DNA from: Mesobacillus subterraneus
GTDB taxonomy: Bacteria > Bacillota > Bacilli > Bacillales > Cytobacillaceae
Direction: 5' to 3'
Assembly: GCF_000934845.1 (NCBI RefSeq)
Contig: NZ_JXIQ01000086.1
Span: 1 to 51,284, forward strand
Length of the DNA stretch: 51,284 nt
This document shows positions 384 to 46,548 of the stretch, piece after piece (position 1 is the stretch's first letter; each line of letters starts with the position of its first letter). A program made the position numbers and the translations under genes. Under the pieces are notes generated by a model. It was not told where the DNA came from. It made no database searches and saw nothing but the letters and a program-made list of their open reading frames with translations.

Positions 384-1823
384 ATGTCTATTACTATTGG
401 CGAAAAAAGGACTTTGAATGTGGAGAGTCTGAACGAGGATATTAAGTTGTTTCCTCCGGTTCACCCCATTACACCTGATATGAAACTCACCCACAAAGGG
501 GTCTCTCGGCTAGTGATGCTAGACCGCTATACTTTTAAAGACACAGAAAAAATCACTCTGTCAAATGGAGATTTTGTTGTCCTCACCATTAAGGAGGATC
601 CGAAATTCCCGGCACGCGGACTTGGATTCATACAAGCTATTGATTGGGAAAACAAGACAGCGACTGTGCTTGTAGAAGAAGAGTTTCGCGGAGTGCTTGA
701 TGATCCCGAAGAATCCACTACGGGGATTATCAAACGTTCACTGGACGTGATGGAAAAGCCGCTCGAACTGTTTTACGAGCAGATCGCAAAACGAAATGCC
801 ACAGGACTTGCAGCAGTTGAAAAAACAGAACAAAAGCGCAAGGAATGGTTCGAAAAGTTTTATCAAGAGCTAGTATCCATGAATTTCATCCCAGCAGGAC
901 GAGTCCTTTATGGAGCGGGAGCTGGCACAGATGTTACCTACTTCAACTGCTATGTCATGCCTTTCGTTAAGGATTCCCGTGAAGGTATCTCCGAGCACCG
1001 CAAGCAGGTCATGGAAATCATGAGCCGCGGCGGCGGGGTAGGGACGAACGGTTCTACATTAAGACCGCGCAACACTCTAGCCAGAGGCGTAAACGGAAAA
1101 TCATCCGGATCGGTTTCATGGCTTGATGACATCGCCAAGCTCACGCATCTAGTCGAGCAGGGCGGGTCAAGACGCGGTGCTCAGATGATCATGTTAGCGG
1201 ACTGGCATCCTGACATTGTAGAGTTCATCATTTCAAAAATGCAAAACCCTAAAATCCTTCGTTTCCTGATTGAAAACACAAACGACGAGTCAATCAAGAA
1301 AACGGCAAAAGAAAAATTGAAATTCACGCCGCTAACCATTCAGGAAGAAGCAATGTACCAGGGGATCGTCAACTATAAGAGCATTCCTGGCTACGGTGGT
1401 TTTAGCGCAGATATCATTAGATCAGCAGAAGAAAAACTCGCAACAGGCGGAACTTATACAGTCCATAACTCAGAATTCTTAACGGGTGCAAATATCTCAG
1501 TCACATTGACAAAAGATTTCATGGATGCAGTCGAAAATAATGCTGAATATGAACTTCGCTTCCCGGACGTTGAAAGCTATGATGCTGAAACAATGAAAGT
1601 TTATAACGAAGAGTGGCATAAAATCGGGGACGTACGTGAGTGGGAAAAGCTCGGCTATAAAGTACGCACCTACAGAAAGATCAAAGCGAAAGAACTCTGG
1701 AACCTGGTCAATATCTGTGCGACATACTCAGCAGAACCCGGCATTTTTTTCATCGACAATGCCAACGACATGACGAACGCACAGGCATATGGACAGAAGG
1801 TTGTAGCGACAAACCCGTGTGGT
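384..1823 (+). CDS. nrdJ: NrdJ, adenosylcobalamin-dependent (class II) ribonucleotide reductase, 5' exon (residues 1-480)
   Basis: Class II reductases convert ribonucleotides to deoxyribonucleotides using adenosylcobalamin to make a thiyl radical, independent of oxygen. This exon codes the first 480 residues. The ATG follows AAGGAG by 9 nt. Visible landmarks are the first redox cysteine (C189, in YFNCYVMP), the SRGGGVGTNGSTLR and GGSRRGAQ segments, and the exon's last four codons NPCG (477-480), where C479 is the expected thiyl-radical cysteine. Without splicing, translation would continue three codons into the intron and stop at TAG (1833-1835), giving a dead 483-residue fragment. Joined to 3009-4127 in phase 0 it gives an 852-residue protein, a normal length for this family. 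Two NrdR-like sites lie upstream. Confidence 0.93.
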
Positions 1824-1846
1824 AGAGCAGCTTAGTTTGCCTCACG
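1816..1846 (+). other. P1 helix and internal guide sequence of the intron
   Basis: Exon bases CGTGTGGT (1816-1823) pair with guide bases GCCTCACG (1839-1846): seven of eight positions pair, with one T-T mismatch, and T1823 forms the canonical U.G wobble with G1839. The four bases just 5' of the guide, GTTT (1835-1838), can pair with the first four bases of the 3' exon, GAAC (3009-3012), as P10. Both splice sites are thus fixed to the base by pairing rather than by alignment alone. Confidence 0.82.
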
Positions 1847-3008
1847 TTAAAAATTGCGGAATAAAGCGGGAACCCTGAGATGGGAATCCGAACCGAAGGC
1901 CTTGAGTAAAAACAAGGACAGGGGCAACGCATAGATGGTGAACCTGCGAAAGCAGAATATAATCCATCCACGAGGCCGCAACATTACAACACTAAAAATA
2001 ATGGAGAGGTTTTTATGAATAGAGGCTATGCAGGTTTCTATAAAGGATTCTATTTAAGAAGTTCATATGAGTATGCATACGCCATATATCTTGACTATCA
2101 TAAGGTGAATTGGACTTATGAGGCTAAAACCTTTGATATAGGATATAAGATTTATAAACCTGATTTTTTCATTTTCGATCAAAACGGCTCTTTGTCAAAG
2201 ATTGTTGAAATAAAATCTCGGAACAAAGAAGCTAAAGAAGGCGCTAGAATGGCTTTAGAAAAAATTAAAACTCTACATGGAATAGATAATGAATTGATTT
2301 CTTATGAAGAACTTTTAAACTTTTATGAATACCTACCTTTCACTTTAAACTCTGTTATAACGAAATGGATTAAATCAAAAGATACTACTATCAACAAATC
2401 GTTATCAGGGTCATTGAATGGGCACTTTAATATAAAACATTCTCCAGCTACTAAGAGGAAAATCGGGGAGCATACAAGGCAATTATGGAATTCTAATAGT
2501 GGAGCAAAACAAAGAATGTTAGACGGGTTAAAAAAATCAGGTCTTTCACAAAAAGGCAAGATCAAAACTCCGAGGGAAAAAAGAAGATGCTTGATTTGCA
2601 ACTCCGAGTTTATAACCCTTGTAAGTTCCCCTAAGAAGTTTTGCAATAGAGTTTGTGCTGGAAAAAGTGCAATTCAAAATGCAACTAAAGTATATGTTAA
2701 CAAGAGAAAGGTTCTTCATGGAGAAATAAAGCAATTCATTATCGAATGGTCAGTTGCCAATTCAAGTTTAGTTTTAAGTACTCCCTTAAATAAAGTCAGT
2801 ACTACAATTAGTAGTATGCTTGACCAAATTGAAAATTCATTTGGAGTTAAAGATTTAAGGGTAATTTCTAAAGCTGTTTTTGGAGAAGATCGAGGAAGAA
2901 AAGATCTCCTATTATTTATGAAAAGTGTGTGTAATGAAAAGATATGCTGAACTAACGGGAAACGAACCGTTAGAACTAAGGGATAAAAAGCCTTTAGGAT
3001 AACAATTG
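1824..3008 (+). mobile_element. Group I self-splicing intron in nrdJ with an internal homing endonuclease gene
   Basis: The 1185-nt insert interrupts the N-x-C-x-E active-site motif between the GGT (Gly) and GAA (Glu) codons. Group I hallmarks are visible. The 5' exon ends in T, which can form the required U.G wobble with an internal guide, and the intron ends in G (3008). A 4-bp P10 can form with the 3' exon. The segment 1851-1970 resembles the conserved P/Q/R/S core, with AAATTGCGGA, AATCCGAACC, GGGCAACGCATAGATGG and AATATAATCCATCC. A P8-like hairpin CTGC-GAAA-GCAG lies at 1944-1955. After the internal ORF, CTAACGG/CCGTTAG and AAGG/CCTT hairpins resemble P9 elements. Splicing restores an uninterrupted NrdJ frame. 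The ORF lies 3' of the core, in the P9 region. The subgroup (IA-like) is not established by eye. Confidence 0.9.
2015..2950 (+). CDS. Intron-encoded homing endonuclease, PD-(D/E)XK-type N-terminus with NUMOD3-like and zinc-finger segments
   Basis: This 311-residue ORF lies inside the nrdJ intron, behind GGAGAGG. It is visibly more AT-rich than the flanking exons, as is usual for a mobile gene. Residues 11-69 carry the pattern R-S-S-Y-E19, then K-P-D50-F, then E65-I-K67. That is the E...PD...ExK layout of PD-(D/E)XK nucleases (Vsr/TnsA-like), and it lacks LAGLIDADG, GIY-YIG and HNH signatures. Residues 138-158 (NIKHSPATKRKIGEH) look like a NUMOD3 DNA-binding module. C192-x2-C195 and C210-x3-C214 form a probable zinc finger. 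The C-terminal third is helical and unrecognised. Inferred role: cut intronless nrdJ alleles to drive homing. It could alternatively be inactive; the nuclease residues appear intact. Confidence 0.75.
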   Translation: MNRGYAGFYKGFYLRSSYEYAYAIYLDYHKVNWTYEAKTFDIGYKIYKPDFFIFDQNGSLSKIVEIKSRNKEAKEGARMALEKIKTLHGIDNELISYEELLNFYEYLPFTLNSVITKWIKSKDTTINKSLSGSLNGHFNIKHSPATKRKIGEHTRQLWNSNSGAKQRMLDGLKKSGLSQKGKIKTPREKRRCLICNSEFITLVSSPKKFCNRVCAGKSAIQNATKVYVNKRKVLHGEIKQFIIEWSVANSSLVLSTPLNKVSTTISSMLDQIENSFGVKDLRVISKAVFGEDRGRKDLLLFMKSVCNEKIC

Positions 3009-4127
3009 GAACAGCCTCTCGCACCAAACTCTGTCTGCAACCTCGCTGCTGTCAACCTTGCAGAAATGGCGGACAAAGAAACAAAAACAGTTAACTTTGA
3101 AAAATTGAAGCATACGGTAGAAGTTGGTGTACGCATGCAGGACAATGTCATTGATGCAACTCCTTACTTCCTGGAAGATAATAAGAGACAAGCACTAGGC
3201 GAACGTCGTGTTGGTCTTGGTGTGATGGGCATGCACGATCTCCTGATTTATTGCGAAACAGAATACGGTTCAGAAGAAGGAAACAAGCTTGTTGATAAGG
3301 TATTTGAAACCATTGCTACTTCTGCCTACAGAGCATCAGTAGAATTGGGCAAGGAAAAAGGCAGCTTCCCATTCCTTCAAGGTGGAACAGAAGAAGAGAC
3401 AAACAGACTTCGCAAGGCATTCACAAATACTGGTTTCATGAAGAAAATGCCTGAAGACATCCGCGAGTCGATTCTTGAAAACGGAATTCGTAACTCACAC
3501 TTGCTGACTGTTGCTCCAACGGGATCTACTGGTACAATGGTTGGCGTTTCAACTGGCCTTGAGCCATACTTCAGCTTCTCATACTTCAGAAGCGGCCGTC
3601 TAGGTAAGTTTATCGAGGTGAAGGCAGATATCGTCCAGGAATACTTGGATCGCAATCCGGAGGCAGATCCTGAGAACCTGCCGAACTGGTTCGTATCTGC
3701 GATGGAATTGGAGCCGGAAGCCCATGCTGATGTGCAATGTATCATCCAGCGCTGGATTGACAGCTCGATCAGCAAAACGGTCAACGCACCGAAGGGTTAC
3801 AGCGTTGATCAGGTGGAAAAAGTATATGAGCGCCTATATAAAGGCGGAGCGAAAGGCGGAACCGTTTATGTGGACGGCTCCCGCGATTCTCAAGTATTGA
3901 CGCTGAAAGCAGAAGAGAACTCAATGGACGATGAAGGGGAAAAGCAAGAAAAACAAAAGCAGCACGTTGTCCTTGTCGACACGATCAATGAATTACGTTC
4001 TACAAACGTGACGATTGGCTCTGAGATCGGCAACACTTGCCCAGTCTGCCGCAAGGGTGAGGTAAAAGAAATCGGCGGCTGCAATACTTGTACAAACTGT
4101 AACGCGCAATTAAAGTGTGGTTTATAA
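3009..4127 (+). CDS. nrdJ: NrdJ, adenosylcobalamin-dependent ribonucleotide reductase, 3' exon (residues 481-852)
   Basis: This exon continues NrdJ from Glu481, the catalytic glutamate of the NPCGE motif, directly into QPLAPNSVCNLA, where C490 is the second redox-active cysteine. The rest of the barrel follows, with RRVGLGVMGMHDLL and the APTGSTGTMVG loop. The C-terminus ends in a CPVC...CNTCTNC...CGL cysteine-rich tail, typical of NrdJ, that probably binds zinc and relays reducing equivalents. The TTG at 3006 is the last intron codon and not a real start: no ribosome site precedes it, and the protein would lack half the active site. The joined product is 852 residues. A strong terminator follows at 4142. 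Confidence 0.93.
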   Translation, partial: EQPLAPNSVCNLAAVNLAEMADKETKTVNFEKLKHTVEVGVRMQDNVIDATPYFLEDNKRQALGERRVGLGVMGMHDLLIYCETEYGSEEGNKLVDKVFETIATSAYRASVELGKEKGSFPFLQGGTEEETNRLRKAFTNTGFMKKMPEDIRESILENGIRNSHLLTVAPTGSTGTMVGVSTGLEPYFSFSYFRSGRLGKFIEVKADIVQEYLDRNPEADPENLPNWFVSAMELEPEAHADVQCIIQRWIDSSISKTVNAPKGYSVDQVEKVYERLYKGGAKGGTVYVDGSRDSQVLTLKAEENSMDDEGEKQEKQKQHVVLVDTINELRSTNVTIGSEIGNTCPVCRKGEVKEIGGCNTCTNCNAQLKCGL

Positions 4128-46426: not shown

Positions 46427-46448
46427 TAGAGCATGATTCAAAAAAAGC

Positions 46449-46472
46449 GGACAACAGCATATGCCGTTGTCC
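46449..46472. terminator. Inverted repeat after meaB
   Basis: GGACAACAGCAT pairs with ATGCCGTTGTCC with one A-C mismatch. There is no good T-run, so termination here is only possible. Confidence 0.45.
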
Positions 46473-46548
46473 TCCATTTAGGGAGTTTAGGGGTATGGAT
46501 CTAGCTGTGTTGTTACCTTTCCCGGATTTTCGGAAAGTTAAACTTACT

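Follow-up and report, generated by a model that had tools for sequence, protein, structure and literature searches.

The nrdJ gene of Mesobacillus subterraneus, which codes for a B12-dependent ribonucleotide reductase (RNR), is split in two parts by an insert, and this raised the question of what the insert is and how it came to interrupt the gene. The gene opens the window, by which we mean the whole stretch of 51,284 nucleotides (nt) analysed (contig NZ_JXIQ01000086.1, our C25, of the 3.9-Mb genome). Its parts were located at 384-1823 and 3009-4127, on the forward strand like all features below unless stated otherwise. Comparison of the sequences indicated that the insert is very probably a mobile group I intron, with an open reading frame (ORF) for a probable homing endonuclease in its P8 loop. 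Exon 1 (384-1823, codons 1-480, ending N-P-C-G) covered positions 2-481 of the 858 positions of the B12-dependent RNR model NF005991 with E 1.8e-285, and the ORF of exon 2 (3009-4127, starting E481-Q-P) covered positions 481-858. The tblastn alignments spanned 1-480 and 481-852, respectively. The insert of 1185 nt (1824-3008) was placed between GGT (1821-1823, Gly480) and GAA (3009-3011, Glu481). This NPCG/E boundary is flanked by residues which we take, from RNR biochemistry, to be the radical cysteine and the catalytic glutamate.

Relatives were compared at this site. Precise in-frame empty sites were found, and the same codon boundary was occupied by homologous inserts in 81 distinct RNR sequences. 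Exact duplicates had been removed from this set; three of its members were on megaplasmids and one (locus L238) was in a distant RNR. The nrdJ counts exclude 8 of 48 loci, in which an NPCG site was lacking. The first-pass annotation had placed the insert exactly between Gly480 and Glu481, and this position was confirmed by the coordinates, by the NF005991 fit of both halves and by the inserts in the 81 sequences.

The pairings that would define the splice sites were then read. In P1, the exon strand CGUGUGGU (1816-1823) faced the internal guide strand GCCUCACG (1839-1846) with six Watson-Crick pairs, one U-U mismatch and a terminal U.G pair. The earlier count of seven of eight pairs plus the U.G holds if the wobble is counted among the seven, and fails if it is read as seven pairs and a wobble besides. 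The guide strand was read in all rows of the 81-intron set, and no row was dropped for want of a guide. The Pro codon was CCG, CCA or CCT, and its wobble base was paired with the guide base in 81/81 introns (72 G-C, 8 A-U and 1 U-A). On the tree of the upstream exon, which held 80 of the 81 rows with L238 excluded, the Pro wobble and the guide base each changed 8 times on the best tree, and 6/6 well-supported independent contrasts agreed (p 0.031). This covariation between wobble and guide is evidence, from comparison, for the use of P1 in living cells. P10 was formed by GUUU (1835-1838) and its partner GAAC (3009-3012), with four pairs in the window, one of them G.U; at least four consecutive pairs were present in 66 of the 81 introns. 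A trend with the Glu codon was seen in P10, where C stood opposite 4/8 GAG exons and 0/73 GAA exons. The terminal base of the intron (3008) was G in 81/81 when the exon-2 protein was used to place the intron end. When G was not required, the first match gave 78 G and 3 T; the T rows came from chance EQG frames inside the intron, and their true ends were G. Both splice sites, P10 and the terminal G were supported as first annotated. An in-frame TAG (1833-1835) would end the translation of exon 1 ahead of the core. A stop in this frame was located ahead of the guide sequence in 72/81 introns, whereas the two remaining frames had one in 24 and 3, and all 81 introns had an in-frame stop within 51 nt. 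Passages of a review (PMC3984707) note such stops in many group I introns.

The helices of the core were drawn by hand from the window. P3 was formed by UUGCGG (1854-1859) and CCGCAA (1976-1981), and between its strands were P4 (1867-1870/1887-1890), P5 (1873-1875/1882-1884), an invariant P6 (1893-1894/1921-1922) and P6a (1898-1904/1913-1919), with one P6a mismatch in the window row. The 5' strand of P7 (1927-1933) read A, a bulged C and GCAUA, and was paired with UAUGC-U (2943-2948). P7.1 (1934-1938/1964-1968) and P7.2 (1944-1947/1952-1955) followed the P7 5' strand. P8 was formed by CAUUAC (1982-1987) and GUAAUG (2931-2936), with the ORF in its loop. P9 (2952-2958/2967-2973) and a second hairpin (2976-2982/2991-2997) closed the intron, and such a pair was usual, as exactly two tail hairpins were found in 68 of the 76 tails folded. 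The helix order P3-P4-P5-P6-P7-P3'-P8-P7'-P9 was the group I order. The extra hairpins between the P7 5' and P3 3' strands, here of nine pairs, are placed as in subgroup IA, for which P7.1/P7.2 hairpins are a marker.

Six helix blocks of the 5' half were tested on 14 relatives. Standard pairs filled 98.4% of 432 cells, and two-sided changes were observed in 14/31 pairs, including 7/9 pairs of P7.1 and P7.2. None of 500 shuffles reached the paired percentage or the covariation score. When one strand was slid by 1-3 columns, pairing fell to 26-49%; this comparison is tilted towards the drawn structure, because the structure was derived from the same sequences. In the larger set, P3 had 6/6 pairs in 78/78 introns with five sequence variants. 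Three of the six P3 pairs were fixed by the patterns used for reading, so this test bears on the other three, and 3/81 introns were unread; by eye, L238 and L288 had all six positions paired with one G.U each, and L227 remained unread. P8 had 6/6 pairs in 64 of the 74 introns read, as the best of four small offsets, and 7/81 were unread by the anchors used. P7 was nearly invariant, with 77/81 identical at the positions read and L238 unread by the pattern. In L244 and L288, its first pair was G-C in place of A-U, and the bulged base had changed with it. The covariance model built here gave 179 bits on the window, which was itself in the alignment of the model.

An insert of another type was weighed against this structure: a group II intron, an IStron or an in-frame intein. 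Group II introns are found elsewhere in the nrdJ of relatives. One near codon 526 in L043 matched RF02004 and RF00029, and in L059 a 610-aa reverse-transcriptase-like ORF, assigned by eye, was located after codon ~482, some two codons away from the group I intron. However, no group II match was obtained in the window, and the group I helix order fits. Pfam gave no transposase for the 311-aa ORF at E up to 1, and a match of the IS66 model in one of 12 endonuclease members (E 0.1) was taken as noise, so the IStron, which would carry an IS605-type transposase, was rejected. The intein reading fails because an in-frame stop comes within the first 12 nt of the insert. We regarded another insert type as the least probable of the explanations considered.

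Several results weighed against a group I intron. P10 had fewer than four pairs in 15/81 introns, and one of five shuffle measures, that of further pair types, was matched by 8/500 shuffles. One nrdJ intron had an A-C mismatch in the first P7 pair. Because P7 hardly varies in the nrdJ set, its support comes from L244, L288 and a recA relative. The Infernal search with the Rfam model Intron_gpI (RF00028), which the first-pass annotation had proposed with a missing core match counted as refutation, gave no match in the window at the gathering threshold, nor in 1750-3100 at E up to 10. RF00028 likewise gave no match in the introns of two natural ORF-less relatives (E up to 10) or in L204, which holds the window's own intron (E up to 5). 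The P7 of the window, GCAUA/UAUGC, also differed from the RF00028 consensus GACUA/UAGUC. The search itself works, because RF00028 matched other nrdJ introns of relatives and one intron elsewhere in this genome, in a flagellin-like gene. However, at gathering it also missed the related introns in recA (L239 and L240) and in gyrA of phage AR9 (L252), the latter even at E up to 5. The miss was therefore rejected as a disproof of a group I intron. We take the failure of RF00028 to be a gap in one model; a match to that model does not define group I ribozymes.

The ORF inside P8 (2015-2950) codes for 311 aa, with a likely ribosome-binding site GGAGAGG (2003-2009) ahead of it and a stop codon that overlaps the P7 3' strand. 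The product is probably a homing endonuclease of the PD-(D/E)xK type, as judged from its conserved motif, its substitution pattern and its predicted fold. P49, D50 and E65 were invariant in 12 proteins and K67 was nearly so. AlphaFold2 gave a mean predicted local distance difference test score (pLDDT) of 78, and the N-domain order alpha-beta-beta-beta-alpha-beta was consistent with PD-(D/E)xK. The nuclease-like domain was followed by NUMOD3-like and zinc-finger-like stretches; NUMOD3 matched weakly in 2/12 members. PHROG 21138, of unknown function, matched 12/12 members. The ratio of nonsynonymous to synonymous divergence (dN/dS) was 0.08-0.24 in 32/45 pairs, many at high dS, and the other 13 were saturated; 10 of the 12 aligned endonucleases were used, with L007 and L226 excluded. 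The Foldseek list from E 0.01 upward contained the R2 retrotransposon protein, Bax1 and PspGI among unrelated proteins. These three presumably carry PD-(D/E)xK nucleases.

Other observations spoke against the endonuclease assignment. K67 was replaced by isoleucine in L009, the predicted template modelling score (pTM) was 0.44, and Foldseek gave no match at E 0.001 or better, the best being 0.01. Pfam PDDEXK_14 reached E 0.14 on the window ORF, below the cut-off, and was weak in 2/12 members. PHROG 1271, an HNH endonuclease family, matched 12/12 members, in the window only at residues 150-219 with E 0.025. The nrdJ intron of L236 carried an HNH-like ORF instead, in another loop. The endonuclease profile had no matches among the sequences of solved structures in the PDB. 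Relatives were absent from the viral contigs searched, and the phages gave three partial weak matches, none covering 80% of the query; these searches thus turned up no phage source for the ORF. According to the review PMC3943268, I-Ssp6803I (PD-(D/E)xK) and I-Bth0305I (EDxHD) are intron homing enzymes with active sites like those of type II restriction enzymes. The window ORF may resemble them in this respect, and differs in having no sequence match to any solved structure and in the NUMOD3-like and zinc-finger-like stretches behind its nuclease-like domain.

Comparison of divergence suggested that the intron is mobile. Endonuclease dS was 0.10-0.24 among four congeners (G000, G014, G012 and G009), whereas in these six pairs the nrdJ exons gave dS of 0.44-0.85. 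Endonuclease dS was thus 2.4-8 times below host-gene dS, and therefore the intron must have moved recently. G013 carried a much older endonuclease copy, with dS of 1.4-1.5 to the others. These values indicated a recent crossing between species in one group, and an intron of a separate lineage in another; spread between species, as judged from such divergences, was shown by comparison. The best tree had 122 rows, of which 80 carried the intron and 42 lacked it (the 42 include L022 and L046, two copies of one genome); it required 37 or more changes in intron presence, though many of its branches were weak. The four recent carriers were less divergent over ~40 codons 3' of the site and over the last five codons 5'. 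This is suggestive of a co-conversion tract, and the dip in the last five 5' codons is explicable by P1 constraint alone. The covariation, the empty sites, the horizontal spread and the conserved endonuclease-like ORF together upheld the group I and homing nature first annotated.

The lengths of the 81 introns were also informative: 24 were at least 1150 nt, 9 were 400-1149 nt and 48 were below 400 nt. Homology to the endonuclease was found in 31/81, and in 11 of the 31 it was partial or broken up into separate pieces. The coexistence of intact, broken and missing ORFs fits the gain, decay and loss cycle of homing introns, which is described in passages of PMC2814812 and PMC3984707. The same lengths bear on the proposal that the intron splices and is no longer mobile here, its ORF protein being inactive or a maturase that helps folding. 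The 48 introns below 400 nt are too short for the ORF and still keep P1, so the ORF is unnecessary for the intron to persist. Set against this, the window ORF is intact and conserved at low dN/dS, and the endonuclease dS far below the exon dS argued for recent transfer. We considered an immobile intron unlikely, though the least unlikely of the alternatives.

Whether the interrupted gene still works was judged from its exons. One proposal is a degenerate mobile element in an nrdJ pseudogene that is backed up by other RNRs. The genome does contain class I-type RNR large and small subunit genes, adjacent on C162, and an NrdD-family gene on C68, and the lack of an RF00028 match could be read in the same way. 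Against this, both exons were intact with a full NF005991 fit, exon dN was 0.01-0.04 versus dS of 0.44-0.85 in five intron-bearing congeners, and the P1 wobble pair was preserved in all 81 introns. A pseudogene was thus judged highly improbable. The same class I-type pair and NrdD-family gene leave unsupported the first-pass claim that nrdJ is essential and that the supply of deoxynucleoside triphosphates depends on splicing of the intron.

A footprint was observed in the codons for Cys and Gly at the 5' splice site. TGT GGT was present in 41/41 distinct intron-bearing genes, whereas TGT was found in 30/41 and GGT in 4/41 intron-less genes. In the larger intron-bearing set, TGT and GGT were each present in 81/81. 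Within the genus, GGT was used by 9/9 carriers and 0/12 non-carriers. Independent contrasts of GGT against the intron were on average 11.7/12 concordant and 0 discordant (p 0.0005-0.002). Either splicing selects the U at the splice site, or homing conversion installs GGT, or both. The absence of GGT from intron-less congeners argues against frequent recent clean loss.

Taken together, the anatomy and the covariation made self-splicing probable, and the following course is proposed for the mobile group I intron. Within the unspliced nrdJ transcript, the guide (1839-1846) would hold the end of exon 1 in P1, and a guanosine bound in P7 would attack after U1823, at the U.G pair. The freed end of exon 1 would then attack after G3008, where P10 keeps exon 2 in place, and in-frame joining of the exons would give an uninterrupted NPCGE site. 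The TAG at 1833 would stop ribosomes ahead of the ribozyme core. The ORF product would cut intron-less nrdJ near NPCG/E, and repair from an intron-bearing copy would install the intron and may convert adjoining exon bases. Such conversion would give the Gly codon GGT, which is the base required by the 5' splice site. Over time the ORF would decay and vanish, leaving introns of ~250 nt.

The wider lineage was searched with R1, a model of half the intron. R1 matched in 41 of 193 genomes of the family. In 36 of the 41, the match was at nrdJ NPCG/E, and the other five were in recA, phage-like genes or a second RNR, with recA and phage-like genes assigned by eye from ORFs. In a sample of 397 genomes from the order, which overlaps the family search, 58 genomes in 40/135 genera matched; the loci of four weak matches (G445, the second match of G473, G532 and G540) were left out of the intron comparison. 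In Rossellomorea, Pontibacillus and Priestia, megaplasmids of 0.6-1.1 Mb (L228, L229 and L230) carried their own nrdJ with this intron at NPCG/E, in L230 with a cobalamin riboswitch upstream, and megaplasmids are possible vehicles of the intron. L238 (contig C168 of G154) was a distant RNR, whose tblastn pieces were 25-41% identical; its intron belongs to this lineage, interrupts the same codon boundary and has a guide base that fits the CCT codon.

The kind of element is well known. What sets this lineage apart is its spread through many relatives of Bacillus, its absence from the matches of the standard RNA-family model and its association with fixed synonymous codons in the host gene. Among bacterial and phage group I introns in protein genes, the review PMC3984707 names those that interrupt recA and nrdE/nrdF in Bacillus species and their phages. 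The introns matched here in recA, which may be the published ones, are alike in that three genomes matched R1 at 48-52 bits, with the gene called by eye from flanking ORFs, and in the P7 of L239 (GCGUA/UACGC). The recA and nrdE/nrdF introns differ in gene and site, whereas the gene here is a class II RNR. In the gyrA introns of the Bacillus jumbo phages AR9 and PBS1, the likeness was two R1 matches (86.5 and 83.1 bits) in an AR9 coding sequence annotated as three joined pieces, with the same GCAUA-type P7 in the stretch read; the difference is that the gene is a phage gene. The text of PMC5312081, when searched, contained 'splic' in no place and 'intron' in one, about another gene. Split nrdJ genes of phages differ as well: the two nrdJ cases considered had a 12-nt gap or an overlap between the parts, and are not bacterial chromosomal NPCG/E introns. 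Titles and the beginnings of abstracts, a scope in which subscription papers were mostly not included, gave no report of a bacterial chromosomal nrdJ NPCG/E intron. RNRdb, by the portion of PMC2795772 seen, curated more than 100 group I introns and may include it. A wider proposal is that one lineage, invisible to Rfam and with a rearranged P7 at the guanosine site (GCAUA/UAUGC in place of GACUA/UAGUC), is common to nrdJ and recA of bacteria, to nrdJ of megaplasmids and to the gyrase and RNA polymerase genes of jumbo phages, and that homing in nrdJ is so frequent that TGT GGT is fixed wherever the intron is present, as a record of invasion at the level of single bases. We offer this tentatively, at somewhat less than even confidence.

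The nrdJ gene of relatives was also a hotspot for other introns. A second region, around codons 263-281 (L041, L042, L056, L057, L060 and others), contained group I introns recognised by RF00028 at more than one position, with an HNH-like ORF in L056. A third site was found at ~652/653, between APTG and S/T (L045 3380-4531, L007 5515-6653, L052, L055, L243 and L245). In L045 and L007 it carried an HNH-like ORF of ~277 aa, assigned by eye; RF00028 gave no match at gathering in these two loci, nor R1 at the site in L045. Elsewhere in the M. subterraneus genome, on contig C65, the group I intron near the 3' end of the flagellin-like gene (L040 2905-3253; RF00028, 90.6 bits) was followed downstream by a 319-aa ORF on the other strand. 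On the reverse strand of the window, 46442-46510 matched the Listeria small RNA sbrA (RF01489, 53.9 bits, gathering 45).

These results provide a well-sampled natural bacterial series of the empty site and of intact, decaying and lost endonucleases, where passages of the review PMC3984707 state that there is little evidence of horizontal intron movement in bacteria. In the members tested, the standard Rfam model fails to detect this lineage, so interrupted RNR genes may be mis-called as broken. The codon footprint at Cys-Gly may allow past invasion to be read from sequence.

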